64,000 nucleotides of DNA from Pseudoxanthomonas suwonensis (GTDB lineage: Bacteria > Pseudomonadota > Gammaproteobacteria > Xanthomonadales > Xanthomonadaceae): NCBI RefSeq assembly GCF_010093235.1, contig NZ_PDWP01000022.1, positions 1 through 64,000 on the forward strand. Reading direction: 5' to 3'. Shown here one piece after another: positions 36,470-61,245 of this stretch (positions within the stretch are counted from its first letter, which is position 1; every line of letters starts with the position of its first letter). Made by a program: the position numbers and the translations under genes. A model generated the notes under the pieces. That model worked only from the letters and a program-made list of their open reading frames with translations. It was not told where the DNA came from and ran no database searches.

Positions 36470-37909
36470 TCAGGCGCGCGCATCGGAGGCCGCGACGGGC
36501 AGCACCGGCTGGGGAGCGATCGCCGGGGCGGAGCGCCAGGTGCGCAGCACGTTCCAGGCCATCACGCACATGCCGGACAGCACCAGCAGGCCGCCGCCCA
36601 GGCGGATCAGGTAGTAGGGGTAGGTCGCGTGCAGCGCCTCGACGAAGCTGTAGGTCAGCGTGCCGTCGGGATTGGTGGCGCGCCACATCAGGCCCTGCAT
36701 GACGCCGGCGATCCACATCGAGGCGATGTACAGCACCACGCCGCCGGTGTGCAGCCAGAAGTGCAGGTCGATGGCCTTGATCGAGAACATCTGCTCGCGG
36801 CCCAGCAGCTTCGGCAGCAGGGCGTAGATCGAGCCGATGGAGATCATCGCGACCCAGCCCAGGGCGCCTGCGTGCACGTGGCCGACGGTCCAGTCGGTGT
36901 AGTGCGACAGCGAGTTCACCGTCTTGATCGACATCATCGGCCCCTCGAAGGTGGCGATCATGTAGAACGAGATGGCGACGATCAGGAACTTCAGGATCGG
37001 GTCGGTGCGCAGCTTGTACCAGACGCCGGAGAGGGTCATGACGCCGTTGATCGCGCCGCCCCAGGACGGCGCCAGCAGGATCAGCGAGAACACCATGCCC
37101 AGCGACTGCGCCCAGTCGGGCAGCGCGGTGTACTGCAGGTGGTGCGGGCCGGCCCACATGTACACGGCGATCAGCGCCCAGAAGTGCACGATCGACAGCC
37201 GGTAGGAGTACACCGGGCGGCCGGCCTGCTTGGGCACGTAGTAGTACATCATTCCCAGGAAGCCGGCGGTCAGGAAGAAGCCGACCGCGTTGTGGCCGTA
37301 CCACCACTGCACCATCGCGTCGACCGCGCCGCTGTACACCGGGTAGGAGTGCAGGGCGCCGGTGGGGATGGCGATGTTGTTGACGATGTGCAGCAGCGCC
37401 ACGGCGATGATGAAGCTGGCGTAGAACCAGTTCGCCACGTAGATGTGCTTGACCCGGCGCTTGGCGATCGTGCCGATGAACAGCACCGCGTAGGCCACCC
37501 ACACCGCCGCGATCAGGATGTCGATCGGCCAGATCAGCTCGGCGTATTCCTTGCCCTGGGTCAGGCCCAGCGGCAGGGTCACGGCGGCCAGCACGATGAC
37601 CAGCTGCCAGCCCCAGAACACGAAGGCCGCCAGCCCGTCCGAGATCAGCCGCACGTGGCAGGTGCGCTGCACCACGTGCAGGCTGGTCGCCATCAGCGCG
37701 CAGCCGCCGAACGCGAAGATCACCGCATTGGTGTGCAGCGGGCGCAGGCGCCCGTAGCTGAACCAGGGCAGGTCGAAATTGAGCGCCGGCCAGTAAAGCT
37801 GGGCGGCGATGATCACGCCTACCAGCATGCCCACGATGCCCCAGACCACGGTCATGACCGCGAACTGACGCACCACCTTGTCGTTATATGTCCCCTGAAC
37901 GGTCGACAC
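36470..37909 (-). CDS. ccoN: cbb3 cytochrome c oxidase catalytic subunit CcoN
   Basis: A 479-residue haem-copper oxidase subunit of high oxygen affinity. Visible ligand segments include WYGHNAVGF and GPHHLQYT for CuB and [10 protein letters not shown] for the haems. The frame is open to 37978, but GTG 37909 follows an AGGAGG site with eight-base spacing and gives the usual N-terminus. Its promoter carries a perfect FNR box. Confidence 0.96.
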
Positions 37910-37964
37910 TTCCCTATCCTCCTGTGGATGGGAGGCATCATCGGCAGCGCCGGCAAGCGGGGCA

Positions 37965-37978
37965 TTGATCAGGATCAA
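37965..37978. promoter_or_regulatory. FNR box of ccoN
   Basis: TTGATCAGGATCAA, a perfect FNR/ANR consensus. Its centre is 62.5 bases from the ccoN start. Reading toward the gene, A and T fall 24 and 28 bases past the box (GATGAT), the place of a -10 element in a class II promoter. Confidence 0.9.
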
Positions 37979-38104
37979 GGCGCCAAGCCCCGTTAACGCG
38001 TTATCCCTTGGAATAGGGGAACTGCGTCCCGGTTCCGGCCCCTCGAAGCGCCCATGGGCGTACCGCTGTATCGTTTAGCACTGAGACGTACCGAGCCGTT
38101 GCGG

Positions 38105-40816
38105 ATGAGCATCTACGCGCTGGAAGCCGTTTTCTCCCCGAAGTCGGTAGCCGTGGTCGGGGCCAGTCCCCGGGCCGGGTCGGTCGGCCGCACCGTGGTC
38201 CAGAACCTGCGCCAGGCGGGTTTCGCCGGCCAGGTGGGCCTGGTGAACCCCAAGTACCGCCAGATCGAGGGCGTGCCGGCGGTGGGTTCGCTGCGGCAGC
38301 TGCCCTTTTCGCCGGAACTGGTGGTGGTCACCACCCCGGCCGAAACCGTGCCCGGGGTGATCGCCCAGGCCGTGGAAGTGGGCGCGCGGGCGGCCGTCGT
38401 GGTCACGGCCGGCCTGGGCCAGGGCCCGGGCTCGCTGCTCGAGAACCTGAGGAACGAGGCGCGTCCGCATGGCCTGCGCATCGTCGGTCCCAACTGCCTG
38501 GGGGTGATGGCGCCGCACGCCGGGCTCAATGCCAGCTTCGCCGCGCGCAGCCCGCTGCCGGGCGACCTGGCCCTGGTCTCCCAGTCCGGCGCCATCGCCG
38601 CCGGGCTGGTCGAGTGGGGCGCCGCGCGCTCGATCGGGTTCTCGGCCGTGGTCTCGCTGGGCGACGCCCTGGACGTGGACTTCGGCGACCTGCTGGACTG
38701 GTTCGCGCAGGATCCGAAGACGCGCGCCATCCTGCTGTACATCGAATCCATCCGCGACGCGCGCAAGTTCATGTCCGCCGCGCGCGCCGCGGCCCGCTCC
38801 AAGCCGGTGGTGGTGGTCAAGTCGGGGCGCCACGCCCAGGGCGCGAAGGCCGCCGCCACCCATACCGGCGCCCTGGCGGGGTCCGACGCGGTGTACGACG
38901 CTGCCTTCCGCCGCGCCGGCCTGCTCCGCGTGCACGCGCTGGACGAGCTGTTCGCCGCGGCCGAGACCCTGGGACACCTGCGCCAGGCCCCGGGCCGGCG
39001 CCTGGCCATCCTCACCAACGGCGGCGGCATCGGCGTGCTGGCGGTGGACCGGCTGGTCGACCTCGGCGGCACCCTGGCCACGCTGGATCCAGGGACCGTG
39101 CGCGCCCTGGACCGGGTGCTGCCGCCGACCTGGTCGCGCTCCAACCCGGTGGACATCGTCGGCGACGCCGACGCGGCCCGCTACACGGCCGCCCTGGAGG
39201 CGCTGCTGGCCGATCCGGGCAACGACGCGGTGCTGGTGATGAACGTGCCCACGGCGCTGTCGTCCTCGATCGAGGCGGCCGATGCGGTGGCTTCGGTACT
39301 GCAGCGGCGGCCGCGCCCCGGCGCCGGCAAGCCGGTGCTGGGCGTGTGGCTGGGCGGCGGCCAGGAAGCGCTGTCGCGGCTGGACGCGGCCGGGGTGCCG
39401 ACCTACGCCACCGAGGCGGACGCCGTTCGCGGCTTCACCTACCTGGTGCGCCACCGCGAGGCGCAGCAGGCACTGATGGAGACTCCGCCCAGCCTGCCCG
39501 AGGACTTCGTGGTCGATGCCGCCGCCGCCCAGGCGATCGTCGGCCGCGCGCTGGAGCAGGGACGCAACTGGCTCGATCCGCTGGAAGTGGTCGCGCTGCT
39601 GGGTGCGTACGGCATCCCGGTGACGCCGGCCTGGCTGGCCGCCGACGCCGACGCCGCGGTCGAGGCCGCGCGCCCGCTGCTGGCGGACGGCAAGCTGGTC
39701 GCGCTGAAGATCCTGTCGCCGGACATCGTGCACAAGTCCGACGTGGACGGCGTGCGCCTGAACCTGTCCAGCGAGGCCGCGGTGCGCGAGGCGGCCGCGT
39801 CCATCCTGGCCCGCGCCCGCGAGCTGCGGCCGCAGGCGCGGATCGAGGGCGTGACCGTGCACCCCATGGTGGCCAGGTCCAAGGCGCGGGAGCTGATCGC
39901 CGGCATTGCCGACGACCCCACCTTCGGGCCGGTGATCGTGTTCGGCCGCGGCGGCACCGCGGTCGAGGTGATCGACGACAAGGCCCTGGCCCTGCCGCCG
40001 CTGGATCTCCACCTGGCCCACGACCTGATCTCGCGCACCCGCGTCAGCCGCATCCTCAAGGCCTACCGCGACGTGCCGGCGGCCGACGAGCGCGCGGTGG
40101 CGCTGGTGCTGGTCAAGCTGGCGCAGCTGGCGGCCGACGTGCCCCAGATCCGCGAGCTGGACATCAATCCGCTGCTGGCCGACCGCGAGGGCGTGATCGC
40201 GGTGGATGCGCGGGTGGCGATCGCGCCCCATCCGGGCCCGGCGCAGAAGGGGCCGTGGCATTCGAGCTTCGTGATCCGCCCGTATCCGAAGGAATGGGAG
40301 CGCATGGTCGACCTGGCCCAGGGGCGGCGGATGTTCGTGCGCCCGGTGCGGCCTGAGGACGAGAAGATGTTCCTGGAGTTCTTCTCGCGGGTCAGCGACG
40401 AGGACCTGCGCCTGCGCTTCTTCTCCGCGGTGCGCCACTTCAGCCACGAGTTCATCGCCCGCCTGACCCAGCTCGACTACGCGCGTTCCATCGCCCTGGT
40501 GGCGATCGATCCGGAGAACGGCGAGATGCTCGGCGCGGTGCGCCTGCTGGCCGACGCCAACTACGAGCGCGGCGAGTACGGGATCATGGTCCGTTCCGAC
40601 CTCAAGGGCCTGGGCATCGGCTGGCAGCTGATGCGGATCATGATCGAGTGGGCCGGCAGCATCGGCCTGAAGGCGGTCGAGGGCCAGGTGCTGCGCGAGA
40701 ACGTGACCATGCTGGCGATGTGCCAGCAGCTGGGTTTCAAGGTCAGGCCGGACCGCGAGGATCCGACGGTGATGGACGTGCTGCTGGACGTGGCGGCGGC
40801 GAGGGCCGCGGGCTGA
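38105..40816 (+). CDS. Bifunctional acyl-CoA ligase / GNAT acetyltransferase (Pat-like)
   Basis: A 903-residue protein like PatZ/YfiQ lysine acetyltransferases. In order: CoA-binding Rossmann domain (about 8-130, VAVVGASPR), succinyl-CoA-ligase-like domains (about 150-460, THTGALAGSD), ATP-grasp domain (about 490-700) and a C-terminal GNAT domain (about 735-900, IMVRSDLKGLGIGWQLM). Such enzymes acetylate proteins such as acetyl-CoA synthetase. ATG 38105 is preferred to 38054. Divergent from ccoN. Confidence 0.9.
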   Translation: MSIYALEAVFSPKSVAVVGASPRAGSVGRTVVQNLRQAGFAGQVGLVNPKYRQIEGVPAVGSLRQLPFSPELVVVTTPAETVPGVIAQAVEVGARAAVVVTAGLGQGPGSLLENLRNEARPHGLRIVGPNCLGVMAPHAGLNASFAARSPLPGDLALVSQSGAIAAGLVEWGAARSIGFSAVVSLGDALDVDFGDLLDWFAQDPKTRAILLYIESIRDARKFMSAARAAARSKPVVVVKSGRHAQGAKAAATHTGALAGSDAVYDAAFRRAGLLRVHALDELFAAAETLGHLRQAPGRRLAILTNGGGIGVLAVDRLVDLGGTLATLDPGTVRALDRVLPPTWSRSNPVDIVGDADAARYTAALEALLADPGNDAVLVMNVPTALSSSIEAADAVASVLQRRPRPGAGKPVLGVWLGGGQEALSRLDAAGVPTYATEADAVRGFTYLVRHREAQQALMETPPSLPEDFVVDAAAAQAIVGRALEQGRNWLDPLEVVALLGAYGIPVTPAWLAADADAAVEAARPLLADGKLVALKILSPDIVHKSDVDGVRLNLSSEAAVREAAASILARARELRPQARIEGVTVHPMVARSKARELIAGIADDPTFGPVIVFGRGGTAVEVIDDKALALPPLDLHLAHDLISRTRVSRILKAYRDVPAADERAVALVLVKLAQLAADVPQIRELDINPLLADREGVIAVDARVAIAPHPGPAQKGPWHSSFVIRPYPKEWERMVDLAQGRRMFVRPVRPEDEKMFLEFFSRVSDEDLRLRFFSAVRHFSHEFIARLTQLDYARSIALVAIDPENGEMLGAVRLLADANYERGEYGIMVRSDLKGLGIGWQLMRIMIEWAGSIGLKAVEGQVLRENVTMLAMCQQLGFKVRPDREDPTVMDVLLDVAAARAAG

Positions 40817-40877
40817 AGCCTCGCGCCGTGTTCACGCCCGCTTCCTATCGTTCCCGGGTGGACGAAGGAGGTGGCAG

Positions 40878-41773
40878 GTGGACGAGGCGGATGTACTGGT
40901 GTCGGCGGTGGCCCGGCGGGTTTGACCGCCGCCACCTACCTGGGAAGGCTGCACCGGCGCTGCGTGGTGGTCGACGCCGGCGACAGCCGCGCGCGCTGGA
41001 TTCCCGAAAGCAACAACTGCCCCGGCTTTCCCCAGGGGATTGCCGGCACCACGCTGCTGGCGCGGCTGCGGGCCCAGGCCGAGTCGTTCGGTGCCGTGCT
41101 CGAGCACGGCATGGTGGAGTCCCTGGAGCGCGACCCGGAAGGCATGTTCGTCGCCCAGGCCGGCGATGGCAGGGTCTGGCGCGCGCCGGCGGTCATCCTC
41201 GCCACCGGGCTGAAGGATCGCCTGCCCGATCTTGCCGACGTGGAAGAAGCGATCGGCTGCGGCGCGCTTCGCCTGTGCCCGGTCTGCGATGCCTACGAGG
41301 CCAGCGACCAGGCCATCGGCATCCACGGTCCCTGGGACACGATCATCGACCACGTACCGTTCCTGCGCGGCTACAGTCCGCGCCTGGCCCTGCTGCCGAC
41401 CGATGCGGTGCCGGCTTCGCTGCCGCCGGAACTGGACGTGGAAGTGCTGCCGGCAGGCGGCCGCCTGGTGTACGCGGACGGCCGTTGCGGCTACGTGGTC
41501 GACGGCCACTGCCACCGCTTCGACACCATCTATCCGTTCCTCGGATGCGACAGCAGCGCGCACCTGGCCAGGCAGGCGGGCGTGGTGCTGTCCGACACCG
41601 GCGAGATCCCGGTCGATGCGCGCCAGCGGACCTCGGTGCCCGGACTCTATGCGGCCGGCGACGTGGTCAGCGGGCTCAACCAGATCTCGGTGGCGGTGGG
41701 CCAGGCGGCAATCGCCGCACTGGGTGCACACAACCGCCTGCCGCCACGGCCGCGCGAACTGCAGGAGAAGTAG
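40878..41773 (+). CDS. Thioredoxin reductase-like FAD oxidoreductase, probable N-terminal frameshift
   Basis: A flavoprotein of about 300 residues. The best start is GTG 40878, seven bases after GGAG, reading VDEADVLV, but that frame stops at 40922-40924. The rest ([15 protein letters not shown] onward) is one frame away, as if one G were missing near 40901. The long frame itself opens at GTG 40871, directly against the ribosome site. A redox-type CPVC motif is present. The expected NADPH loop is replaced by [12 protein letters not shown], so NADPH use is doubtful. Final FAD motif: [10 protein letters not shown]. Confidence 0.7.
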
Positions 41774-41848
41774 GACCGGGCGCCACAGGGTGCCGCCTGG
41801 ACCGACCCGCCGGGGGGAGGTGCGGCGGGCCGGCTGGCGACAAGGAAG

Positions 41849-43030
41849 TCAGGCCTGCGGAACCCTGACGTGGCCTTCCATCAGCACGCGCGCGCTGCGG
41901 CTCATCACCGCGCGGGTCACGGTCCACTGGCCATCGACCTGGGCGACCGATGCGCCCACGCGCAGCGTCCCGGAAGGGTGGCCGAAGCGCACCACGTCGC
42001 GCGAGCCGCCACCAGCGGCGCGGTTGACCAGGGTGCCCGGGACCGCGGCGGCGGTGGCGATCGCGACCGAGGCGGTGCCCATCATCGCGTGGTGCAGCTT
42101 GCCCATCGACATCGCGCGCACGTTGAGGTCGATGTCGCCGGCGGCGATCTGTTTGCCGCTGCTGGCGAGGTAGTCGCGCGGCGGCGCCACGAAGGCGACC
42201 TTGGGCGTGTGCTGGCGCCTGGCTGCTTCCTCGGGCGAGGAGATCAGGCCCATGCGCAGCGCGCCGGCGACGCGGATGGCCTCGAGCTTCGCCAGGATCG
42301 CCGGATCGCCGTTGATCGCCGGCTGCAGCTCGGTGCCGGTGAAGCCGATGGCCTGTGCTTCCACGAACACGGTGGGGATGCCGGCGGTGATCAGGGTCGC
42401 CTCCAGCGTGCCCATGCCGGGCACCTCGAGGCTGTCGACCAGGTTGCCGGTGGGAAACATGCTGCCGCCGTCGTCGCCTTCCTCGGCCGGATCGAGGAAC
42501 TCGACCACCACCTCGGCGGCGGGGAAGGTCACGCCGTCCAGTTCGAAATCGCCGGTCTCCTGCACCTGGCCGCCGCTGACCGGCACGTGCACGACAATGG
42601 TCTTGCCGATGTTGGCCTGCCACACTCGCACTTCCACCGTGCCTTCCTGCGGGATGCGCGCCGGGTCGATGAAGCCGTTGGCCACGGCGAACGGACCGAC
42701 CGCGGTGCTGAGGTTGCCGCAGTTGCCGCTCCAGTCGACGAAGTCCTCCTCGATCGCGACCTGGCCGTAGAGGTAGTCCACGTCATGGCCCGGGCGCGTG
42801 GCCGGGCCGATGATCACGCACTTGCTGGTGCTGGAGGTGGCGCCGCCCATGCCGTCGGTGTGCTTGCCGTAGGGGTCGGGCGAACCGATCACCCGCTGCA
42901 GCAGGCGGTCGCGCGCCGGACCCGGCACCCGCGCCGCGGCGGGCAGGTCCTGCAGGCGGAAGAACACGCCCTTGGAGGTGCCGCCGCGCATGTAGGTGGC
43001 GGGGATGCGGAGCTGGGGCTTGTGGCTCAT
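41849..43030 (-). CDS. prpF: 2-methylaconitate cis-trans isomerase PrpF
   Basis: A 393-residue isomerase of the methylcitrate cycle for propionate. The N-terminal RGGTSKG (catalytic Lys) and SGNCGNLSTAVGPFA (active-site Cys) motifs are intact. PrpF works with AcnD in organisms that lack PrpD. Here an SRPBCC gene separates it from acnD. Confidence 0.95.
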   Translation of the reverse strand: MSHKPQLRIPATYMRGGTSKGVFFRLQDLPAAARVPGPARDRLLQRVIGSPDPYGKHTDGMGGATSSTSKCVIIGPATRPGHDVDYLYGQVAIEEDFVDWSGNCGNLSTAVGPFAVANGFIDPARIPQEGTVEVRVWQANIGKTIVVHVPVSGGQVQETGDFELDGVTFPAAEVVVEFLDPAEEGDDGGSMFPTGNLVDSLEVPGMGTLEATLITAGIPTVFVEAQAIGFTGTELQPAINGDPAILAKLEAIRVAGALRMGLISSPEEAARRQHTPKVAFVAPPRDYLASSGKQIAAGDIDLNVRAMSMGKLHHAMMGTASVAIATAAAVPGTLVNRAAGGGSRDVVRFGHPSGTLRVGASVAQVDGQWTVTRAVMSRSARVLMEGHVRVPQA

Positions 43031-43073
43031 GGGATGGGCTTGGCAGGGGGCAGGCAGGAGTGGAGGACGCGGC

Positions 43074-43532
43074 TCATGCCCCGTCCGGGATTTCGGGTTC
43101 GACCAGCTTCGCCAGCATGTCCAGCGAATCGCGCCAGCCGAGGTGGCACATGTCCACCGGGATGGCCGCGGGAATGCCTTCCTGCACGATCGTCAGGGCG
43201 GTACCGGCGACGCTGGGCTGCAACGACACGGTCACCTGCATCTCCCCGGGCAGGCCGGGGTTGTCGAAGGTGTCGGTGTGCCGGAGCAACTCGTTCTCGA
43301 CCAGCTCGACGAAGCGCACGCGGAACGATTCGCTGTTGCCGGTGGAGAAGTTGGTGAAGGCCATGCGGTAGCCCACGCCCGCTTCGAACTCGAGCATGCG
43401 CGCGGTGAAGCCGTACGGCGGCATCCATCGCACCAGCGCGTCCGGATCGGTGAACGCGCGGAACGCCCTGGCCGGCGGTGCGGCCAGGATGCGGTGCAGG
43501 CGGACGGTTCCGGTGGCGGTGGTCTCGGTCAT
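43074..43532 (-). CDS. SRPBCC (AHSA1-like) protein
   Basis: A 152-residue START-like protein of the AHSA1 type: VRLHRILAAPPARAFRAFTDPDALVRWM at the start (in part), then GYRMAFTN, then the C-terminal HLGWRDSLDMLAKLVE helix. ATG 43532 is chosen because AAGGAG lies eight bases before it. It sits between acnD and prpF on the same strand. The ligand is unknown and it is not a known methylcitrate-cycle enzyme. Confidence 0.88.
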   Translation of the reverse strand: MTETTATGTVRLHRILAAPPARAFRAFTDPDALVRWMPPYGFTARMLEFEAGVGYRMAFTNFSTGNSESFRVRFVELVENELLRHTDTFDNPGLPGEMQVTVSLQPSVAGTALTIVQEGIPAAIPVDMCHLGWRDSLDMLAKLVEPEIPDGA

Positions 43533-43577
43533 GGTCGTGGCTCCTTCGCAGTGGGTCATGCCACTGCGACGAACCGG

Positions 43578-46196: not shown

Positions 46197-46368
46197 GGCG
46201 GGCAGGTGCGCTGGCGTCGCGCCGGCCAGCCTGCCGCCGGTGCTGCTGCACCGGCCTGCCGGGCGTGCCGGGCATGGATCGGGAGGTCGATCTTACCCCC
46301 GCGGTACCGCCCGGCCCGCCGAAACGCGCTTTTTCCGGGCGCATTACGCCCTGAATGCGCGCCTTGTA

Positions 46369-46385
46369 TTGATGCCGGCGATCAA
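46369..46385. repeat. TTGAT-N7-ATCAA inverted repeat
   Basis: TTGAT and ATCAA separated by GCCGGCG, which is almost self-complementary. It lies about 180 bases upstream of acnD and just after the Cys-tail gene. The 7-base spacer excludes an FNR site. It could bind a different dimeric regulator. Confidence 0.4.
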
Positions 46386-46402
46386 TGCGTCGGCGCCGGC
46401 CT

Positions 46403-46642
46403 TCAGCCGCTGCAGCCGCCGCAACAGACCGAGGGCACGATGTGGATGGCCTGCTGCGGCACCGCAACACCGGCGGCGGCAAGGATCGCCCGGACCTCGC
46501 TGGTGCCGGCGCAGGTGGCCACGCGCAGGTGGCCGCTGGCAGGGTCCAGGTCGACCAGGGCGGCAGGATCGCTTTCCAGCAGGGCGCGCTCGATGCGCGT
46601 CAGGTCGACCCGCGACGGATCGATGCGGATGTCCAGTTCCAT
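46403..46642 (-). CDS. Small Cys-tailed protein A (possible metallochaperone)
   Basis: A 79-residue protein from ATG 46642. It has a short strand-helix-strand-strand-helix pattern (MELDIRID, RIERALLES, HLRVATCAG, VRAILAAAGV) ending in a VCCGGCSG tail. It resembles the 84-residue protein at 56988-57242: both have a DPxxG(H/S)(L/V)(R/Q)V strand, a V(R/D)(A/R)ILAAAG helix and a Cys-rich C-terminus. As the last gene of nirK-nirV-sco-azurin, a copper or iron delivery role is inferred. No family name is known to me. Confidence 0.78.
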   Translation of the reverse strand: MELDIRIDPSRVDLTRIERALLESDPAALVDLDPASGHLRVATCAGTSEVRAILAAAGVAVPQQAIHIVPSVCCGGCSG

Positions 46643-46716
46643 GGCGGATTCCGGAAATGGCCGCGTGGCGGCCCGGTGGAGGCCGCCCGCGCCCCGTGGC
46701 ACGGGCGGCACGCGGC

Positions 46717-49718: not shown

Positions 49719-49782
49719 GTTTCGTCTCTTTCGTCTCGTTGGGCTGCGGGACGAACAGTGCGCGTACGGGGCCGCACGGACC

Positions 49783-49796
49783 TTGATTTGCATCAA
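49783..49796. promoter_or_regulatory. FNR box of nirK
   Basis: TTGATTTGCATCAA, a perfect FNR consensus centred 71.5 bases from the nirK start. A and T lie 24 and 28 bases past it toward nirK (CACTGT). Confidence 0.9.
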
Positions 49797-49831: not shown

Positions 49832-49845
49832 TTGACCCAGGTCAA
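49832..49845. promoter_or_regulatory. Extra FNR/DNR-type box in the nirK-receptor gap
   Basis: TTGACCCAGGTCAA, a perfect palindrome with C/G inner bases. It lies between the nirK and receptor boxes. Unlike the other boxes it has no A/T pair at 24/28 in either direction, so it may be an accessory site. Confidence 0.75.
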
Positions 49846-49880: not shown

Positions 49881-49894
49881 TTGACCACCATCAA
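49881..49894. promoter_or_regulatory. FNR/DNR-type box of the TonB receptor gene
   Basis: TTGACCACCATCAA centred 72.5 bases before the receptor ATG. A and T are found at 24 and 28 bases past it (AAGACT). Confidence 0.8.
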
Positions 49895-49959
49895 GGCGCG
49901 CGCCATGGGCGCGGCCAAGACTGCGCGCACTCCAAGGGAACACGCGCAAGAGGCGCACC

Positions 49960-52020: not shown

Positions 52021-52071
52021 GCCGGCTGTCGCCGGCGGCGGCATGATCGCCGCCGCCGGACATCCGCGCCT

Positions 52072-53343: not shown

Positions 53344-53615
53344 GCCCGTGCCGTTGCCGCGCCCGGAGCGGGCGCAGAGGTGGAGGCAGACCCGGTGCGC
53401 GGCCGCCGCCAGATCGCGATGCGGCAGCCCCCTTCGGGCAGATCCGCAAGCCGCCATGCCGAGCCCTGCGCTTCCAGCATGGGCAGCAGCGGTACCGGAC
53501 GGAACGGCGTCAGCGCCACCAGGACGGCGCGTGCGGGCAGGGCATCCAGCGCTTCGAGGATGTGCTGCAGCGGTTCGGGCGGCGGCAGGTGGCGGAGGTC
53601 GAGCAGAGGGGACAT
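53340..53615 (-). CDS. DUF2249 domain protein
   Basis: A 91-residue protein of the TusA-like DUF2249 family: LLDLRHLPPPEPLQHILEAL, then LVALTPFRPVPLLPMLEAQG. Such proteins recur near nor, nnrS and cbb3 genes. The TusA-type Cys is not present in the first motif. Ala/Thr-rich tail. Upstream is an FNR-type box. Confidence 0.82.
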   Translation of the reverse strand: MSPLLDLRHLPPPEPLQHILEALDALPARAVLVALTPFRPVPLLPMLEAQGSAWRLADLPEGGCRIAIWRRPRTGSASTSAPAPGAATARA

Positions 53616-53673
53616 GGCGATCGGTGGGCGGGTGCGGGCCGCTGCACGTTCGCAGCGCGGCCGCCGCGATGCA

Positions 53674-53687
53674 TTGACGTACATCAG
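53674..53687. promoter_or_regulatory. FNR/DNR-type box of the DUF2249 operon
   Basis: TTGACGTACATCAG, one mismatch from a full palindrome, centred 65.5 bases from the DUF2249 start. A and T occur 24 and 28 bases past it toward the gene (GAACGT). Confidence 0.75.
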
Positions 53688-53721
53688 CCGCGTGCGCGTA
53701 TCACCCCGCCGCCGCGGCGTC

Positions 53722-53735
53722 TTGACCCTGGTCAT
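53722..53735. promoter_or_regulatory. FNR/DNR-type box of the porin gene
   Basis: TTGACCCTGGTCAT centred 64.5 bases before the porin ATG, with A and T at 24 and 28 bases past it (CAGCGT). Confidence 0.75.
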
Positions 53736-53792
53736 GGCTCCCCGGCGCCGACGGGCCCAGCGTGCGCGCAACCCCACACACCGGCTCCCCCG

Positions 53793-55037
53793 ATGCCTGT
53801 CCAATACCGTCCGCGCCACATCGTCCCCCTGCTTGCCCTGGTCATGCTTCCCCTGCCGGCGTTGGCCGCGCAGGACGAAGGCCCCGGAACCTGGCTCGAC
53901 CTGCGCTACCGCCACGAACGCGTGGACCAGTCCGGCTTCGGCGAGGATGCGGTCGCCGACACCTTGCGCCTGCGCGTGGGCGCGCGCAGCGCGCCGTGGC
54001 ACGGCTGGTCGGCGCTGGCCGAGGCCGACGCGGTGCTGGGCCAGGACGATGGTCGCTACAACGACACCCGCAATGGCCGCCGGGCCTATCCCGTGGTCGC
54101 CGATCCGGCCGGCGCGGAGATCAACCAGGCCCTGCTGCGCCACGCCGGCACGCGCACCGTCGCGACCCTGGGGCGGCAGCGGATCAACCTGGACAACCAG
54201 CGCTTCGTCGGCGGCAGCGCCTGGCGGCAGAACGAGCAGACCTACGACGGCGTGCGCCTGCAGCTGGCCGCCACGCCGCGCCTGGCGCTGGATTACGCCT
54301 GGATCGGCGGCGTCAGCACCATCTTCGGGCCGGCCGACAGCAGCGCCTCCACCCGCGCCAACCGTTCCGACAGCGGCGGCGACAGCCACGTGCTGCGCGC
54401 CGCGTTGCAGCTTGCGCCATCGCTGCGCCTGGTCGCCTACCACTACCGGGTGGAACTGGAGGACATGGCGGTCACTGCGGCAGCGCCGCTGGGCACCCTG
54501 GACAGCCGTACCAGCGGCCTGCGCCTGGAGGGAACCCGGGGTCCGTGGAGCTATGCGGCCGAATACGCAGGCCAGCGGGACCTGGCGGGCAACCCGTGGG
54601 GGCTCGACAGTCGCTACGTACTGGCGGAGCTGGGCTATGGCCTCGCGGGCGGCACCGTGCTGAAGGCCGGATACGAGTCGCTGGGCGGCGGCGAAGGCGA
54701 GGGCAACCGCGCCTTCCAGACCCCGCTGGCGACCCGGCATGCCTTCCAGGGCTGGGCCGACGTGTTCCTGACCACGCCGGCGCAGGGCGTGGACGACCGT
54801 TACGTGGGCGCCACGGTGCCGCTGGCCGGCGGCAGCCTGCAGGCCTGGTACCACGACTTCGCCGCCGAGCGCGGCGGCGGCAGCTATGGCCAGGAGCTGG
54901 ATGTTTCCTACGCGCACGCGGTACCGGGCGTGCAGGGCCTGTCCGGCCTGCTCAAGCTGGCCCGCTACCGCAGCGACGACGCGGCTTACAGCGCCGACAC
55001 CGGCAAGCTCTGGCTGCAGCTGCAGTACAGCTACTGA
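53793..55037 (+). CDS. Alginate-export/porin family outer membrane protein
   Basis: A 414-residue outer membrane barrel with signal VMLPLPALAAQD and a start like alginate-export porins (WLDLRYRHERVDQSGF). The segment LGRQRINLDNQRFVGGSAWRQ is diagnostic of that family, and the last strand ends LQYSY. ATG 53793; the frame is open upstream but crosses the promoter. With its FNR-type box it may pass nitrite or other small anions; that is inference. Confidence 0.85.
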   Translation: MPVQYRPRHIVPLLALVMLPLPALAAQDEGPGTWLDLRYRHERVDQSGFGEDAVADTLRLRVGARSAPWHGWSALAEADAVLGQDDGRYNDTRNGRRAYPVVADPAGAEINQALLRHAGTRTVATLGRQRINLDNQRFVGGSAWRQNEQTYDGVRLQLAATPRLALDYAWIGGVSTIFGPADSSASTRANRSDSGGDSHVLRAALQLAPSLRLVAYHYRVELEDMAVTAAAPLGTLDSRTSGLRLEGTRGPWSYAAEYAGQRDLAGNPWGLDSRYVLAELGYGLAGGTVLKAGYESLGGGEGEGNRAFQTPLATRHAFQGWADVFLTTPAQGVDDRYVGATVPLAGGSLQAWYHDFAAERGGGSYGQELDVSYAHAVPGVQGLSGLLKLARYRSDDAAYSADTGKLWLQLQYSY

Positions 55038-55047
55038 GGCGGCGTGG

Positions 55048-55179
55048 CTAGCCGGCGGACGGATCCGCCGGCGGCACGGTTTCCAGGAACAGCGCCACGC
55101 CTGCTGCGTCGCAGGATTCCTGCAGCAGCAGGCTGGCCGCCAGGCACGGATCGGGAAGTTCGGGGCACTCGTGTTCCAT
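55048..55179 (-). CDS. 43-residue Cys-containing small protein
   Basis: A short ORF with three cysteines (MEHECPELPDPCLAAS and QESCDAAG). A strong GCGGAGGAAC site precedes ATG 55179 and the gene follows SirB2 by 11 bases, so it may be the last gene of the nnrS operon. It contains no signal peptide. I know no family; reality depends on conservation. Confidence 0.55.
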   Translation of the reverse strand: MEHECPELPDPCLAASLLLQESCDAAGVALFLETVPPADPSAG

Positions 55180-55190
55180 GGTTCCTCCGC

Positions 55191-55592
55191 TCAGCCGCCA
55201 AGCAGGTAGAGCGCCCCCAGCGGATGGTGGGCGCGGGCGATGCAGTAGGCCTGAAGGAAGCACAGCGCCGCGCCGGCCAGCAGCCCCGCGCGGACGCCGG
55301 GCCCGCGGCGCGGACGGAAGGCCAGGATGCCCAGCACCACGTAGCTGGCGACGAAGCCAAGCTTCACCAGCAGCCAGCCGTTGGCGTACAGCTCGCGCGG
55401 CAGGATGGTCAGCAGCATCAGCGCCGCGGTCAGCAGCACGGTATCGATCGTGTAGCTGAGGTAGCGCGGCAGCGCGTGCCGCGGCCATTGCAGGCCTGCC
55501 AGCAGCGACAGTCCGCGCAGGGCGAAGAAGCTGCCGCTGAGCATCACGGCGCTGATGTGGACGAGCTTGATCTGCGGATAGAACTCGATCAT
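55191..55592 (-). CDS. SirB2 family membrane protein
   Basis: A 133-residue protein with four helices; IKLVHISAVMLSGSFFALRG is typical of SirB2. The family is linked with haem-copper and NnrS-type gene sets but has no set function. It lies 9 bases after nnrS. Confidence 0.88.
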   Translation of the reverse strand: MIEFYPQIKLVHISAVMLSGSFFALRGLSLLAGLQWPRHALPRYLSYTIDTVLLTAALMLLTILPRELYANGWLLVKLGFVASYVVLGILAFRPRRGPGVRAGLLAGAALCFLQAYCIARAHHPLGALYLLGG

Positions 55593-55601
55593 GGGAGTGG
55601 C

Positions 55602-56846
55602 TCAGCCGGGACGACCGTCGCGGCGCGGGGTGAGGTAGACATGGCCGATGCGCGCCACCCAGGGCGACAGCGCCAGCAGCCAGCCGATCGCGGCCAGTGC
55701 CTGCCACAGCCCCGGATCGGGCAGCACGTCGGCGAGGATGCGCAGGGTGGCCACGACCTGGATCGCCGCGAACGCGAACCAGGCGATGCCGTACATCCGC
55801 AGCGGACGCCCGGAATGGCCCTGGGTCACGCGGGTGACCATCGCCACCAGCAGGCTGCCGAAGAAACCGATGAACAGCGCGTGCATCGGCGCGCGTCCCA
55901 GGATGAATTCCCCGGTGACGCCATATACCGCGCTCTGCGCCAGGTACAGGGCGAAGGTGACCGGCAGCCAGGTGGTGCCGATGAACAGCACCGCCAGCAG
56001 GCCGGGCATGCGCGTGCGCGGCCACCAGCGCCACACGGCCAGGGTGGTGAGCGCCAGCAGCGGTGCGTCGGCGATCCACAGCCAGGCGTAGCCATGCACC
56101 AGTTCCAGGCCGAGATGGACCAGCGCCAGCACCCACACCGCCAGCAGCCACCACAGCGGCCGCCACGCGCGGTAGCCGGGCACGGCATTGCCGGCGAAGA
56201 ACGGGAACATGCGATGGGCTACGGTCACGTACAGCGGCAGCAGCAGGCCGAATCCGCCGAGCTTGATGCTGGCGAAGGCCCACTGCGCGGATGCGCCCAG
56301 CACGAAGGCCAGGAACATCGCCAGGCCCAGCCAGCCCAGCACCAGCGCGGCGAAGCAGGACCATGCATGCATGGTGCGTCCGCGCTCGTCGGCCAGCAGC
56401 CGGCCGAGCAGGAACAGGGCCGTGCTCCATCCGGCAAGCGCCATCCACAGGCCAATGGTCAGGCCCGCTTCCAGGCCGGCGGCACCGAGCAGGATGGCCA
56501 GCTGGCCACCCATCAGTCCGGCGCCCACCGGCAGGTAATGCCGGCGCTGCAGCTCCGGCAGGCCCATCCAGCGCGGGAACACGGTCAGCAGGAAGCCGAA
56601 CACGAAGCTGGGCAGGACCAGGTACTGCATCAGGAAGGCGTGCAGCCAGCCGGCGGGAACCGGCAGCTCCGGCATGCTCCATGCGCCCCAGCGCGCCGAT
56701 ACCAGCCACAACGCCCACCACAGCATCGCCAGCAGCACGTTGGCCGCGCCGATGAAGAACATCAGCCGGTGCGGGGCATGCGCGAGCCAGGCCGGCGAGG
56801 GCCGGACGCGACCGGGACGGGGCAGGGGAACGGTCTCGATGTGCAT
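55602..56846 (-). CDS. nnrS: NnrS family protein
   Basis: A 414-residue haem- and copper-linked membrane protein with about twelve helices: HAPHRLMFFIGAANVLLAML at the start, LHAFLMQYLVLPSFVFGFLLTVFPRW (in part) and HALFIGFFGSLLVAMVTRV. NnrS proteins protect against NO stress, including damage to iron-sulfur proteins. It heads nnrS-sirB2-small ORF and is divergent from the second Cys-tail gene. Confidence 0.92.
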   Translation of the reverse strand: MHIETVPLPRPGRVRPSPAWLAHAPHRLMFFIGAANVLLAMLWWALWLVSARWGAWSMPELPVPAGWLHAFLMQYLVLPSFVFGFLLTVFPRWMGLPELQRRHYLPVGAGLMGGQLAILLGAAGLEAGLTIGLWMALAGWSTALFLLGRLLADERGRTMHAWSCFAALVLGWLGLAMFLAFVLGASAQWAFASIKLGGFGLLLPLYVTVAHRMFPFFAGNAVPGYRAWRPLWWLLAVWVLALVHLGLELVHGYAWLWIADAPLLALTTLAVWRWWPRTRMPGLLAVLFIGTTWLPVTFALYLAQSAVYGVTGEFILGRAPMHALFIGFFGSLLVAMVTRVTQGHSGRPLRMYGIAWFAFAAIQVVATLRILADVLPDPGLWQALAAIGWLLALSPWVARIGHVYLTPRRDGRPG

Positions 56847-56880
56847 GGCCGCAGTCTGTCCGCCACCCGTGGGGGGCGCC

Positions 56881-56894
56881 TTGACCCAGGTCAG
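56881..56894. promoter_or_regulatory. FNR/DNR-type box of nnrS
   Basis: TTGACCCAGGTCAG, one mismatch from perfect, centred 41.5 bases from the nnrS start. A and T lie 24 and 28 bases past it (CAGACT). The transcription start would then fall at or near the start codon, so a leaderless message or a later start is possible. Confidence 0.7.
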
Positions 56895-56914
56895 CCCGGA
56901 GCGTTGCGGCGGGT

Positions 56915-56928
56915 TTGACCAGGGTCAA
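56915..56928. promoter_or_regulatory. FNR/DNR-type box of the second Cys-tail gene
   Basis: TTGACCAGGGTCAA centred 66.5 bases before ATG 56988. TAACGT follows at 23-28 bases past the box, a good -10 element. Confidence 0.85.
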
Positions 56929-56987
56929 GGCGGGACGCGCGTGCGCTGCCTAACGTGCCGCCGCATCGACCACGCCACGAGGAACGC

Positions 56988-57242
56988 ATGAGCCATCCAT
57001 CCGACCCTGCCGATACCGGAGCCGGCCTGTCGCGCCTGGCCGCCATCAGCGCGGCCCTGCGCCCGCACGATCCCGGCGCGCAGGTGGCCCTGGACCCGGA
57101 CCACGGCAGCGTCCAGGTCCTCACCGTGCTTGATCCGGAGGAGGTGGACCGCATCCTCGCCGCGGCCGGGATCCCGACTGCCCCCGCGCAGGCCAGGTCC
57201 GGCGGCGGCTGCGGTTGCGGTTGTTCCTGCGGCGGCGGCTGA
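56988..57242 (+). CDS. Small Cys-tailed protein B (possible metallochaperone)
   Basis: An 84-residue protein with a helix-strand-strand-helix core (RLAAISAALR, AQVALDPDHGSVQVLTVL, EEVDRILAAAGI) and a tail GGGCGCGCSCGGG carrying four cysteines. It resembles the protein at 46403-46642 in length, core and Cys tail. ATG 56988 follows ACGAGGAA. A strong FNR-type promoter precedes it. Metal or NO binding by the tail is inference. Confidence 0.8.
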   Translation: MSHPSDPADTGAGLSRLAAISAALRPHDPGAQVALDPDHGSVQVLTVLDPEEVDRILAAAGIPTAPAQARSGGGCGCGCSCGGG

Positions 57243-57440
57243 GCCTGGCGTCGCGGCCTTCCCGGGTGCCGCGCGCCGCGGCGCCCCACCCGGCGCTTGG
57301 GCGGGGTTCATGGGGCCGGGTGGTACCATGGCCGCCGAGCCCCGTGCTCCCACGCGCGTCCCGCGCGGCCATACGGCCCCGATTCGCTCCCTTCCACACT
57401 GAGAGGCCCGCCCGTGCGCGGCCAGCCCGGGGAGCCGCAC

Positions 57441-58103
57441 ATGCCAGGTTACGAAACCCGCCAAGAACACGTCGCCATCGGCGGCCACGACTACCGCCTG
57501 CGCGTGCTGGCCGACCGCCAGCAGTTCTGGGATCCGGACGGGCATGGCGAACGCCTGGGCATCTCCTCGGCGCAGTGGGCGCTGTTCGGGCAGCTGTGGC
57601 CCGCCGGCGAGCTGCTGGCGCGGGCGATGCAGGACTTCGACATCCGTGGCAAGCGCATCCTCGAACTGGGCTGCGGCATCGGCCTGGCCAGCCTGGTCCT
57701 GCAGCGTCGCGGCGCCGACGTGGTGGCCTCGGACATGCATCCGCTGGCCGAGGTGTTCCTGGCCTACAACGCCGCGCTCAACGAACTGCCGGCGCTGCAC
57801 TACCGCCACCTCAACTGGGACGAGCCGCTGCCGGAACTGGGTCGTTTCGACCTGATCATCGCCAGCGACGTGCTGTACGAGAGCGGCCACGCGGCGTTGC
57901 TTGGCGGCGTGGTCGACCGCCACGCGCAGCCGGAGGCGGAGGTGCTGGTGGCCGATCCGGGCCGCGGCAACAGTGCCCACCTCAACCGCCAGATGGGCGG
58001 GCGCGGCTTCGAACTGGAGGAACGGCGCTGCGCGCTGCATCCCGACGAGGCGCCGCCTTTCCGCGGCCGCCTGCTGCATTACACCCGCGGCGGCCACGCG
58101 TGA
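57441..58103 (+). CDS. SAM-dependent methyltransferase, METTL21/Methyltransf_16 type
   Basis: A 220-residue class I methyltransferase. SAM motif I is ILELGCGIGLASLVL, followed by DVVASDMHP, and the post-motif IIASDVLYE resembles the lysine-methyltransferase group that includes METTL20/21. The target could be a protein lysine, not known. ATG 57441 is preferred; the frame opens further up. It overlaps the YkgJ gene. Confidence 0.82.
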   Translation: MPGYETRQEHVAIGGHDYRLRVLADRQQFWDPDGHGERLGISSAQWALFGQLWPAGELLARAMQDFDIRGKRILELGCGIGLASLVLQRRGADVVASDMHPLAEVFLAYNAALNELPALHYRHLNWDEPLPELGRFDLIIASDVLYESGHAALLGGVVDRHAQPEAEVLVADPGRGNSAHLNRQMGGRGFELEERRCALHPDEAPPFRGRLLHYTRGGHA

Positions 58104-58420
58104 GCCGCCACGGCGCCCGGCACGCGCGCTGCGCGGCCGAGTGCAGCCACTGCGATGCGGTGTGCTGCCGGCTGACGGTGGTGCTGGACGAGGGCGACCA
58201 TGTTCCCGAACACCTGACCGAGCTGTTGCCGGGCGGGGCGCGGGTGATGGCGCATGGTGCCGATGGCTGGTGCGTGGCGCTGGATGCGGAGCACCGCAAC
58301 TGCGGCATCTATGACGACCGCCCGGATACCTGCCGGCGCTTCGTGATGAACGGCCCTTACTGCCGCTCGGTGCGCAGCGAGCACGCCGCACGCGAGCCGA
58401 TTCCCCTGCTGCTGCGCTGA
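58100..58420 (+). CDS. YkgJ family cysteine cluster protein
   Basis: A 106-residue protein with the YkgJ/CxxCxxCC zinc/iron-binding pattern: CSHCDAVCCR, then a WCVAL segment, CGIYDDRPDTCRRF and GPYC. It starts GTG 58100 within the methyltransferase stop (GTGA). Function unknown. Confidence 0.85.
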   Translation: MSRHGARHARCAAECSHCDAVCCRLTVVLDEGDHVPEHLTELLPGGARVMAHGADGWCVALDAEHRNCGIYDDRPDTCRRFVMNGPYCRSVRSEHAAREPIPLLLR

Positions 58421-58819
58421 CCCGTTCCATGCTTCCTTCCCCCACCGCGAGGGGTTGGGGCAGGCGGGAAGGGAAGGCTCGCGATGCCGGTTGCGCCTCG
58501 CCCCGGAAAGGCGAAGCTCCAGGAGCAAGGGCTTTGGCCTGCCGTCTCGCGGCTTTGGCGGGCCACCTGTTCCCTGCTTGTGCAAGAGCGCTTTTCAGCA
58601 GCCGGATGGCTGGTCAAAAGCAACCAAAGGACAGCAAAGCCCGACCCGCTCGCCGTGGCCTGGCCAGCCGGTGCCCGCGCTCCTTGCGACGGCGGTCGTG
58701 GACCATGACCCACCCGGACATATGGGTCTCTACGGCCGACCGTTGCTGCGATGCCCGCCGAACTGCAACGGGCGGCGAGAAGCACAGGCCACGGCAACCG
58801 CCACAACCCCGGGCCTGAC
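58421..58819. other. Intergenic region with no supported gene
   Basis: About 400 bp between YkgJ and the norB terminator. Short open frames exist but have no ribosome sites or familiar domains. The stretch near 58610-58650 (CAAAAGCAACCAAAGGACAG) resembles a repeated xanthomonad intergenic sequence as I remember it; a genome search would settle that. Confidence 0.5.
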
Positions 58820-58821
58820 GC

Positions 58822-58852
58822 AAAAAAAGACGGGCCGCGAATGCGGCCCGTC
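58822..58852 (-). terminator. norB terminator
   Basis: On the minus strand GACGGGCCGC and GCGGCCCGTC form a 10 bp stem with a four-base loop followed by seven Ts, 22 bases past the norB stop. Confidence 0.9.
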
Positions 58853-58874
58853 CTGTGTCCAGCTTCCTGGCGGA

Positions 58875-61172
58875 TCAGCGGCGCGGCACGATCGCCGCCG
58901 CGGCCACGGTGGTGGCCGACGAGACCGGCGCGCCGCGCTTGGGCGCCACCCACAGCCGGAACACGAACCAGGCCAGGGCCAGCGCACCGACGCTGAACAG
59001 CGTGTCGGCCGGCACGCGCATCCACACCAGCAGGTCGATGATCGGCTGCTGCATGAACTCCGCCGAGCGCGCGAACCAGTAGCCGTGCTCGATCGCCGCA
59101 TCCAGCTGCAGGATGCCCAGCGGAAGCAGGGTGAACAGCGACATGCCGGCCAGGCCGATGTTGAGCGACCAGAAGCAGGTCTTCAGCAGGCGCTCGCTCC
59201 ATTGCAGGTCGGGCTTGAGCCCGCGCAGGCAGAACAGCATCAGGCCGATGCCGAGCATGCCGTACACGCCGAACATCGCGGTGTGGCCGTGGTTGGCGGT
59301 CAGGTTCAGGCCCTGCATGTAGTACAGCGGCAGCGGCGGGTTGATCAGGAAGCCGAACAGGCCGGCGCCCACCAGGTTCCAGAACGAGACCGCCAGGAAG
59401 AACATGATCGGCCACTTGTAGCGTGCCATCCACGGCGTGGCCTTGCCCAGCCTGTAGTTGTGCCAGGCCTCGAAGCCCACGTAGGCCAGCGGCACCACTT
59501 CCAGCGCCGAGAAGCTGGCGCCCAGGCCGATGACGGCGGTCGGGGTGCCGGTGAAGTACAGGTGGTGCAGGGTGCCGAGCACGCCGCCGGCCATGAAGAT
59601 GATGGTGGCGAACAGCACCGCGACGGTGGCCGAACGCACCTGCAGCAGGCCCAGGCGGGTGAACAGGAAGGCGATCACCGCCACCGCGAACACCTCGAAG
59701 AAGCCTTCCACCCACAGGTGCACCACCCACCAGCGCCAGTACTCGACCATCGACAGGTGGCTGTGCTCGCCCCACATCAGGCCGGCCGAATAGAACACGC
59801 CTATCGCGACCACCGACAGGAACAGCAGGCCCACGATCGAGCGCGATTCGGCGCCCTTGCGCATCGCCGGCCACAGGGCGCGGCCGACCAGTACCAGCCA
59901 CAGCAGCAGGCCGACGAACAGGAACCACTGCCAGAACCGGCCAAGGTCGACGTATTCCCAGCCCTGGTGGCCGAACCAGAAGTTGTGGGCCAGGCCCAGC
60001 TTCTGCATCACCGCCATCCACTGTCCGGCGAAGGAACCGACCACGATCACCAGCAGGCAGGTCCACAGCACGTTGACGCCCAGGCGCTGGAACTTCGGCT
60101 CGTGCCCGGAGATGGCCGGGGCGATGTACAGGCCCATGCCCAGCCACGCGGTGGCGATCCACAGCACGGCCAGCTGGGTATGCCAGGTGCGGGTCAGCGC
60201 GTAGGGGAGGATCTCGGACAGGGCGAAGCCGTAGGCCTCCTGGCCCTCGACCTGGTAGTGCGCGGTGGTCGCGCCCAGCAGGATCTGCACCAGGAACAGC
60301 GCGATCACCACCCAGAAGTACTTGGCGGTGGCGCGCATCGAGGGCGTGACCTTGATCAGCGCCAGCGGATCGGACTTGGGCAGCACCGGCTGCATTTCCT
60401 CGCCGTGGCCGGTGGCGTAGTGCCAGCCCAGCAGGCCGACGCCGGCGATCAGGAACAGCACGCTGAACACCGTCCAGATCAGCAGGTTGGACGGCGGGGT
60501 GTTGCCGACCAGTTCGTCATGCGGCCAGTTGGCGGTGTAGCTGATCTCCGAGCCCGGACGCTCGGTCACCGAGGCCCAGGCCGCCCACCAGTAGAACGCC
60601 GCCAGCTGGCGGCGATGCCCGGCGTCCGGCACCGCGTCGTTGCGCATGGCATAGGCCTCGCGCAGCTCCGCCGTCGCCGGGTCGTTGGAGAACAGGCTCT
60701 CGTAGTGCGCGGAGACCTTGGCCATCGCCGCGGCGCGCTCGGCGTCGAGGGTGATGGTGCCGCTGTCCGCGTCCCAGGTGTTGGGCCGCAGCAGGGCCTG
60801 CACGCGCTTCGCGTACGCGGCCTGGGTCGGTTCGTCCAGCTGCTTGTACGAATCGACGCCATGCTCGCGCGCGGCCCAGGCATCGAGGATGGCCTCGGCC
60901 TCGCGGTGCAGCCAGTCCGCGCCCCAGTCCGGCGCCACGTAGCCGCCGTGGCCCCAGATCGAGCCCAGCTGCTGGCCGCCGATCGACTGCCAGACCTGGC
61001 GTCCGGTCTCGATGTCGGCGCGGGTGTAGACCACGGTGCCGTCGGTGGTGACCACCTGTTCGGGCATGGGTGGCGCCTGGCGATGGATCTCGCTGCCGAC
61101 CCACAACAGGGCGGCGAACGAGGCGAAGAGCAGGACCGCCAGGCCTGCCCAGAGCTTGCGTGTTGGATCCAT
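58875..61172 (-). CDS. norB: Quinol-dependent nitric oxide reductase (qNOR)
   Basis: A 765-residue single-subunit NO reductase that makes N2O from NO using quinol. The N-terminal ~250 residues are the fused NorC-like part without a haem c motif (DGTVVYTRADIETGRQVWQSIGG in part). The catalytic part has the Glu-rich HLWVEGFFEVFA, GTLHHLYFTG and ANHGHTAMFG segments carrying haem and FeB ligands. ATG 61172 follows GGAGAGG; an in-frame start at 61205 is less likely. No norQ or norD adjacent. Confidence 0.96.
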   Translation of the reverse strand: MDPTRKLWAGLAVLLFASFAALLWVGSEIHRQAPPMPEQVVTTDGTVVYTRADIETGRQVWQSIGGQQLGSIWGHGGYVAPDWGADWLHREAEAILDAWAAREHGVDSYKQLDEPTQAAYAKRVQALLRPNTWDADSGTITLDAERAAAMAKVSAHYESLFSNDPATAELREAYAMRNDAVPDAGHRRQLAAFYWWAAWASVTERPGSEISYTANWPHDELVGNTPPSNLLIWTVFSVLFLIAGVGLLGWHYATGHGEEMQPVLPKSDPLALIKVTPSMRATAKYFWVVIALFLVQILLGATTAHYQVEGQEAYGFALSEILPYALTRTWHTQLAVLWIATAWLGMGLYIAPAISGHEPKFQRLGVNVLWTCLLVIVVGSFAGQWMAVMQKLGLAHNFWFGHQGWEYVDLGRFWQWFLFVGLLLWLVLVGRALWPAMRKGAESRSIVGLLFLSVVAIGVFYSAGLMWGEHSHLSMVEYWRWWVVHLWVEGFFEVFAVAVIAFLFTRLGLLQVRSATVAVLFATIIFMAGGVLGTLHHLYFTGTPTAVIGLGASFSALEVVPLAYVGFEAWHNYRLGKATPWMARYKWPIMFFLAVSFWNLVGAGLFGFLINPPLPLYYMQGLNLTANHGHTAMFGVYGMLGIGLMLFCLRGLKPDLQWSERLLKTCFWSLNIGLAGMSLFTLLPLGILQLDAAIEHGYWFARSAEFMQQPIIDLLVWMRVPADTLFSVGALALAWFVFRLWVAPKRGAPVSSATTVAAAAIVPRR

Positions 61173-61231
61173 GATGCGGCCTCTCCGGGGAAGGAACGGC
61201 CGCATCTTCGGCAGCGGGGCCGGCGGCGGCC

Positions 61232-61245
61232 CTGACGCAGGTCAA
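61232..61245. promoter_or_regulatory. FNR/DNR-type box of norB
   Basis: CTGACGCAGGTCAA, read toward norB as TTGACCTGCGTCAG, centred 66.5 bases from the start, with A and T at 24 and 28 bases past it (GAAGAT). The rest of the gap to 61524 shows no gene, RNA or repeat I can support. Confidence 0.78.

Follow-up and report, generated by a model that had tools for sequence, protein, structure and literature searches.

The stretch analysed here, called the window, is 64 kb of Pseudoxanthomonas suwonensis DNA (70.3% GC) on contig C14 of a genome of 3.42 Mb in 66 contigs. It carries a copper nitrite reductase gene (nirK), whose product shares 96% identity with the NirK of Pseudoxanthomonas sp. J31 and 95% with the NirK of P. 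taiwanensis, together with ccoN, a copper receptor gene and several nitric oxide (NO) genes. FNR-type boxes (TTGAY-N4-RTCAA) lie upstream of eight genes, and a ninth, here called auxiliary, lies between those of nirK and the copper receptor. In the geometry used throughout, the box occupies -48 to -35, an A at 24 bases past the box (A24) is -11A, a T at 28 (T28) is -7T, and the predicted +1 falls 35 bases past the box. The nine boxes are:

37965..37978, (-): FNR-type box of ccoN, TTGATCCTGATCAA; -10 at 37937-37942, predicted +1 at 37930; gene named by TIGR00780.
49783..49796, (-): FNR-type box of nirK, TTGATGCAAATCAA; -10 at 49755-49760, predicted +1 at 49748; gene named by TIGR02376.
49832..49845, no strand: auxiliary FNR-type box, TTGACCCAGGTCAA; a perfect box without A24/T28 on either side.
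49881..49894, (+): FNR-type box of the TonB-dependent copper receptor; -10 at 49917-49922, predicted +1 at 49929; gene named by TIGR01778.
53674..53687, (-): box of the DUF2249 gene, CTGATGTACGTCAA; -10 at 53646-53651, predicted +1 at 53639; PF10006.
53722..53735, (+): box of the porin-like gene, TTGACCCTGGTCAT; -10 at 53758-53763, predicted +1 at 53770; PF13372 Alginate_exp.
56881..56894, (-): box of nnrS, CTGACCTGGGTCAA; -10 at 56853-56858, predicted +1 at 56846; PF05940.
56915..56928, (+): box of the small Cys-tail gene, TTGACCAGGGTCAA; -10 at 56951-56956, predicted +1 at 56963.
61232..61245, (-): box of norB, TTGACCTGCGTCAG; -10 at 61204-61209, predicted +1 at 61197; NorB by PF22085 and COX1.

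An earlier note on this DNA held that the eight gene-proximal boxes share the A24/T28 pair toward the gene and that chance agreement was unlikely. We found the pair at 8/8 boxes; the per-offset p lies between about 4e-14 and 7e-14, or about 2e-12 and 4e-12 after correction for 60 offsets, so both statements hold. A-N3-T has a background frequency of 2.1% across the window and 2.3% in the neighbourhood of the boxes. The window contains 13 boxes with at most one mismatch, while shuffles give 1.26 expected. Over the first 60 downstream bases, the invariant columns among the eight are G2, A24, T28 and C30; the -12 base varies (G, C, A, G, C, C, T, G) and the -10 is degenerate (NANNNT). In the genome as a whole, perfect TTGAYN4RTCAA boxes number 16, whereas the reversed pattern occurs once, and 11 of the 16 show A24/T28 in one orientation or both. 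The note had also proposed a genome scan; with the five perfect boxes of the window excluded, 7/11 perfect boxes carry the pair where 0.46 are expected (p=6e-8), the counts at all other offsets being 0-2 among these 11. Control sites of the form TTGA-N6-TCAA that lack the Y/R bases make up only 5 of 21 genome boxes, one of them with the pair, which is too small a control. A conceivable objection is that the A/T pair reflects chance, or part of the site of another regulator, and not a -10 element, as the additional conserved bases past the T (G29 in 7/8, C30 in 8/8) might suggest. However, the pair recurs out of sample, both in the rest of the genome and in relatives, where a start signature appears at the matching distance, and we regard this explanation as extremely improbable; chance was dropped on the 8/8 and 7/11 statistics.

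The offset test in relatives used 80 nirK loci, 43 of them classed as Lysobacterales-type, with 288 oriented boxes (234 once near-copies were removed); palindromic boxes were entered in both directions, so many of the oriented sites counted cannot be promoters. Among 186 oriented boxes of the Lysobacterales-type loci the pair stands at offset 24 in 61 and at offset 25 in 17, with 0-12 at each of the 58 other offsets; the 48 oriented boxes of the remaining loci have it at offset 23 in 12 and at 24 in 11. In those 61 sites, columns unused for the selection show C at -1 in 77% and A at +1 in 46% (background 20%), and -12 is C or T in 80%. Also, the plain box is commoner than its reversed control in 21/21 genomes, namely our own and 20 relatives. 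Gene by gene, we compared distinct upstream regions from 62 loci, which are related and not independent of one another and include the window's own copy for ccoN and norB. A box followed by A-N3-T at offset 23-25 lies upstream of ccoN in 17/17 regions from genus members (exactly 24 in 14), nirK in 27/27 (22), nnrS in 16/16 (15), norB in 21/22 (17) and the Cys-tail gene in 6/6 (3). The arrangement is found in only 8/25 regions for the copper receptor (exactly 24 in 6), 5/13 for the DUF2249 gene (5) and 3/6 for the porin gene (3). Every ccoN box (17/17) reads TTGAT-N4-ATCAA. The promoter boxes of nnrS start with CTGA in 16/16 regions, and 20 of the 21 norB regions with a box have one ending in TCAT or TCAG; this conserved imperfection looks as if the NO genes had kept weak sites.

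The predicted starts lie 21 nucleotides before the start codon for ccoN, 30 for nirK, 31 for the copper receptor, 24 for the DUF2249 gene, 23 for the porin, and 25 for both the Cys-tail gene and norB. For nnrS the predicted +1 coincides with the A of its ATG, which would imply a leaderless mRNA. A box 48 bp before the nnrS ATG is seen as well in all 7 relatives whose alignment begins at residue 1. Just outside the window, a hemN box (C14:65522-65535) adjoining the FNR gene also has A24/T28 and is a further putative promoter of the same geometry; there, as at the L167 box, the ATG lies one base beyond the predicted start. Regarding the products, the NCBIfam comparison gave no match for NorB of the window. 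The Cys-tail gene (56988-57242, (+)) encodes an 84-residue protein with a terminal Gly/Cys run, GGGCGCGCSCGGG, and a scan of Pfam and NCBIfam gave it no match at E 0.001.

The class II reading with the box at -41.5, as the note had put it, is supported by the footprints in relatives, the C-1/A+1 signature and the genome scan, in which it withstood the refuting test set by the note. Each box is centred 41.5 bp before its predicted start, with a degenerate -10 at one fixed offset, and a centre near -41.5, as fixed by the putative -10 element, is well supported as an FNR/CRP-type class II position for all eight boxes and 7/11 others. These are promoters of a known kind and mostly ordinary. Of 23 E. 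coli promoters that are activated by FNR and whose start is known, 19 are reported to carry the site at -41.5 +/- 4, and one site is reported in 89% of FNR peaks (PMC3688515). The window promoters resemble those class II promoters in having a box centred near -41.5 that overlaps the -35; they differ in that all eight boxes predict exactly -41.5, the -10 is degenerate in 70% GC DNA, and several boxes are of the C/G type. A second parallel is the FNR regulon of Sphingopyxis granuli TFA, with the box TTGAc/t-N4-g/aTCAA mostly at -41.5, targets including ccoN and hemN2, and two FNR-like genes (PMC7713065, in part). Box form, position, ccoN and hemN-type targets (predicted ones here) and a pair of FNR-like genes are common to both organisms, although paired, phased boxes are not described in the portions of that source drawn on here (PMC7713065).

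From FNR biology, we would expect that, as oxygen falls, an iron-sulfur FNR dimer binds each box, overlapping the -35, and assists promoter opening by sigma-70 RNA polymerase. The rules of class I, II and III activation and the mechanism through the C-terminal domain of the polymerase alpha subunit (alpha-CTD) are general knowledge. A candidate for this regulator is encoded at the end of the window, next to norB and hemN:

63308..64000, running past the window end, (-): FNR gene, with C-x2-C-x5-C and a further Cys.

Its product contains E-T-V-S-R, matches the FNR chains 5cvr/5e44 (E=5.5e-49) and stays below the cut-off of the NCBIfam Fnr model NF008365 (203 bits vs 228). E-x-x-S-R is the recognition rule for FNR, and the protein has both this motif and the Cys cluster of a [4Fe-4S] FNR, the iron-sulfur cluster being predicted. 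The genome encodes just three proteins that score above the HTH_Crp_2 cut-off. The second (L022:1028-1843, contig C21) has C-x2-C-x7-C and E-T-V-S-R, with FixK2 as its nearest solved structure (E=4e-29); by eye, its gene adjoins one for an ABC exporter. The third (23403-24092) is closest among solved structures to the Xanthomonas-type catabolite activation-like protein 3iwz (E=1e-117) and is presumably of the Clp/CRP type. Across the genus, 17/17 genomes have HTH_Crp_2 matches, and among the 26 regulator loci inspected (28 fetched) 13 show C-x2-C-x7-C, 12 C-x2-C-x5-C and 1 no motif. A Dnr/NnrR-type NO sensor, and not FNR, might drive the NO genes from the same geometry, given that Dnr and Anr boxes are reported to be indistinguishable in Pseudomonas (PMC5398030, in part) and that some genus members have further HTH_Crp_2 matches above the cut-off. 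Nevertheless, the three HTH_Crp_2 proteins of this genome are the FNR, its Cys-cluster paralogue and the 3iwz-like protein, with no further Crp/Fnr protein of Dnr/NnrR type among them (other NO sensors, NorR for one, were not searched for), which makes such a sensor very unlikely here. Two Rrf2 proteins are also encoded, neither of them NsrR-like as judged by eye.

The earlier note's set of eight leaves out the box at 49832-49845. Its distance to each of its two neighbours, the boxes of nirK and the copper receptor, is 49 bp, so that its centre falls at about -90.5 for both predicted starts. We rejected it as a third promoter box, having A24/T28 on neither side, and as a decayed receptor promoter box, since relatives without a -10-bearing receptor box keep the spacing between auxiliary and nirK boxes; in those relatives the auxiliary box is without A-N3-T at 23-25 toward the receptor. 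A second box upstream of nirK is present in 25/25 Pseudoxanthomonas-type rows, i.e. our own and 24 loci chosen from that group, some of them nearly identical, at spacings of 39, 40, 49, 50, 59 or 60 bp, which put the auxiliary boxes of the relatives near -81, -91 or -101. In three loci (L027, L030, L031) a middle box is spaced 49 or 50 bp from that of nirK and 39 bp from that of the receptor. Four Lysobacter loci have a second box with one mismatch, spaced 50 or 61. An auxiliary box at 49 bp also occurs in a different genus of this family, at a gene (L155) for a protein of copper-oxidase type that carries a cytochrome c domain at its C-terminus and resembles NirK by eye.

The half-sites of the two nirK boxes differ in the 25 rows: the promoter box is T/A in 22/25, and the auxiliary box is C/G in 19/25 and T/A in 0/25. 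Two box types may mean two regulators, with TTGAT-N4-ATCAA (ccoN, nirK promoter) bound by one iron-sulfur FNR and TTGAC-N4-GTCAA (auxiliary box, NO genes) by a FixK/FnrL-like paralogue. The uniform T/A type of the ccoN boxes (17/17) and the wide occurrence of both Cys patterns in the genus (13 and 12 of the 28 loci fetched) fit this proposal, which we nonetheless find doubtful: E-T-V-S-R is common to both proteins, so a difference in half-site preference would go unexplained, and C/G may merely be a weaker site for one FNR.

The spacings of the auxiliary boxes appear to follow the helical repeat. Box pairs were labelled tandem where one box only has an outward A-N3-T at offset 23-25, and divergent where both have it. 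In the discovery set, tandem clusters (n=23) gave R=0.57 at period 10 (p=0.0007 with the period free) and divergent clusters (n=15) R=0.25 (p=0.60). At nirK, a tree of 29 rows requires at least 7 changes among the three spacing classes, with 8/26 inner branches weak and with rows L045-L047 counted although their box pair is labelled divergent. As the tandem/divergent grouping had followed sight of the nirK spacings, and the nirK-only test was weak, we made a separate order-wide search for two boxes 34-64 bp apart. Such pairs occur in 53/299 genomes, and in 0/299 for the reversed control. Of the 59 pairs read, 20 nearly duplicated the earlier set or one another and were removed; the remaining 39 comprise 12 tandem pairs, 23 divergent ones and 4 that are neither. 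The tandem spacings were 38, 47, 48, 48, 49, 49, 50, 50, 51, 59, 59 and 60, with R=0.79 against 0.06 for the divergent pairs; label shuffling gave p=0.00025, and p=0.00035 at a phase fixed beforehand. The new set includes two TonB receptors with similar N-terminal halves (L229 and L230), not fully independent of each other, and one cluster with a doubtful frame and no gene named (L157). Downstream of the new tandem clusters, the 9/12 genes read are three TonB receptors, two porin types, two universal stress proteins, an ODP-type metallo-beta-lactamase fold protein and a pyridine-nucleotide oxidoreductase.

Over both sets, 29/35 tandem spacings fall at 38-41, 48-51 or 58-61, 2/35 at 42-47 and 0/35 at 52-57; for divergent pairs the counts are 14/38, 8/38 and 7/38. 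Of the tandem clusters, 29/35 are in phase or within 1-1.5 bp of it, the exceptions being 35, 37, 44, 47, 62 and 74; the spacing of 44 belongs to L158/L159, labelled tandem though their flank points to another gene that diverges. Windows picked afterwards gave p=4e-5 in a 2-by-2 comparison, which is not relied on. Phasing as a trait of any two nearby boxes was rejected, the divergent pairs being unphased. Judged by their spacings, auxiliary boxes in relatives mostly hold helical phase and boxes of divergent pairs do not, and the two features of a tandem, class III-like FNR promoter, a second upstream box and a predicted position on the same helical face, are both present.

The auxiliary box probably marks the site of a second FNR-type dimer that would bind on the same DNA face and activate. 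Such a dimer would most likely add activation through a second alpha-CTD contact at nirK and at the copper receptor; should it activate both, the copper enzyme and copper uptake would rise together. Two FNR sites on one promoter are known from E. coli, where reportedly yfiD has sites at -93.5 and -40.5, spaced 53 (PMC11264516, PMC3688515), ompW has sites at -126.5 and -81.5, spaced 45 (PMC4886647), and the upstream site represses in each case. The arrangement described here is similar in its two sites and differs in its spacings, mostly near 39, 49 or 59, and in having one auxiliary box in phase with two divergent promoters. By that precedent, a second dimer near -90 could instead damp nirK and the copper receptor in full anaerobiosis, giving a microaerobic maximum with nitric oxide limited. 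Expression of yfiD is reduced by its upstream site at -93.5, tandem sites in artificial promoters are repressive at -85 to -95 (PMC11264516), the second ompW site represses as well (PMC4886647), and our own auxiliary box stands at about -90.5. However, the boxes of relatives lie near -81, -91 or -101, of which -81 and -101 fall outside -85 to -95; the tandem clusters avoid the natural repressive spacings of 53 and 45, from which they lie about half a turn off, and this favours activation. Moreover, FNR at -81.5 activates ompW, though there is no -41.5 site there (PMC4886647). Repression therefore seems rather unlikely, and activation is the better reading of the auxiliary box, although not a settled one. 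A divergent gene pair is likewise found in the nirS-nosR2 region of Dinoroseobacter shibae, where a single central box is reported to act for both, at -39.5 and -41.5, and these denitrification genes are under FnrL/Dnr control (PMC5398030); the window differs in having a box of its own for each gene and a shared auxiliary box besides.

Several observations weigh against phased activation at nirK and the copper receptor. The nirK-only phase fit gives p=0.16 with 4 independent spacing changes, 0.05 with 5 and 0.009 with 7. Strict windows fixed beforehand contain only 7/12 new tandem clusters (p=0.032), and 4/23 discovery tandem clusters are out of phase (spacings 35, 37, 44, 74). More distant nirK loci show one box only (L075, L091, L094) or none (L099) in the 330 bases searched. 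The copper-receptor box has a -10 in only 8/25 relatives, so shared control would not be general. Finally, -90.5 falls within -85 to -95, a range that is strongly repressive in an artificial E. coli promoter (PMC11264516, in part).

With these points considered, an account of the window by eight FNR-type promoters of class II and a single auxiliary box of FNR type remains, as a whole, highly probable. A broader scheme is possible and more speculative: Xanthomonadales would have two FNR architectures, one simple class II and one class II with an auxiliary box at whole helical turns (about -81, -91 or -101), and in the window the TTGAC-N4-GTCAA box would act in phase on the divergent promoters of copper nitrite reductase and copper uptake and would be read by the second Cys-cluster FNR paralogue, placing two oxygen sensors on one DNA face. 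We offer this scheme tentatively and hold it to be less than likely. Our literature search found nothing on FNR and denitrification in Pseudoxanthomonas, on nirK with two FNR boxes in Xanthomonadaceae or on a Stenotrophomonas FNR regulon, and we claim the absence of phased auxiliary FNR boxes from print no further than this search.

The geometry of the eight promoters provides, from sequence alone, base-precise start predictions in a Pseudoxanthomonas-type denitrifier. For the specialist, the part of most interest is the phased auxiliary box. Across species, these boxes constitute at nirK a natural series of spacing variants (39/40, 49/50 and 59/60 bp), which makes the effect of a second upstream FNR dimer on a class II promoter directly testable. 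Such tests would reveal whether a single switch governs copper nitrite reductase together with copper uptake.

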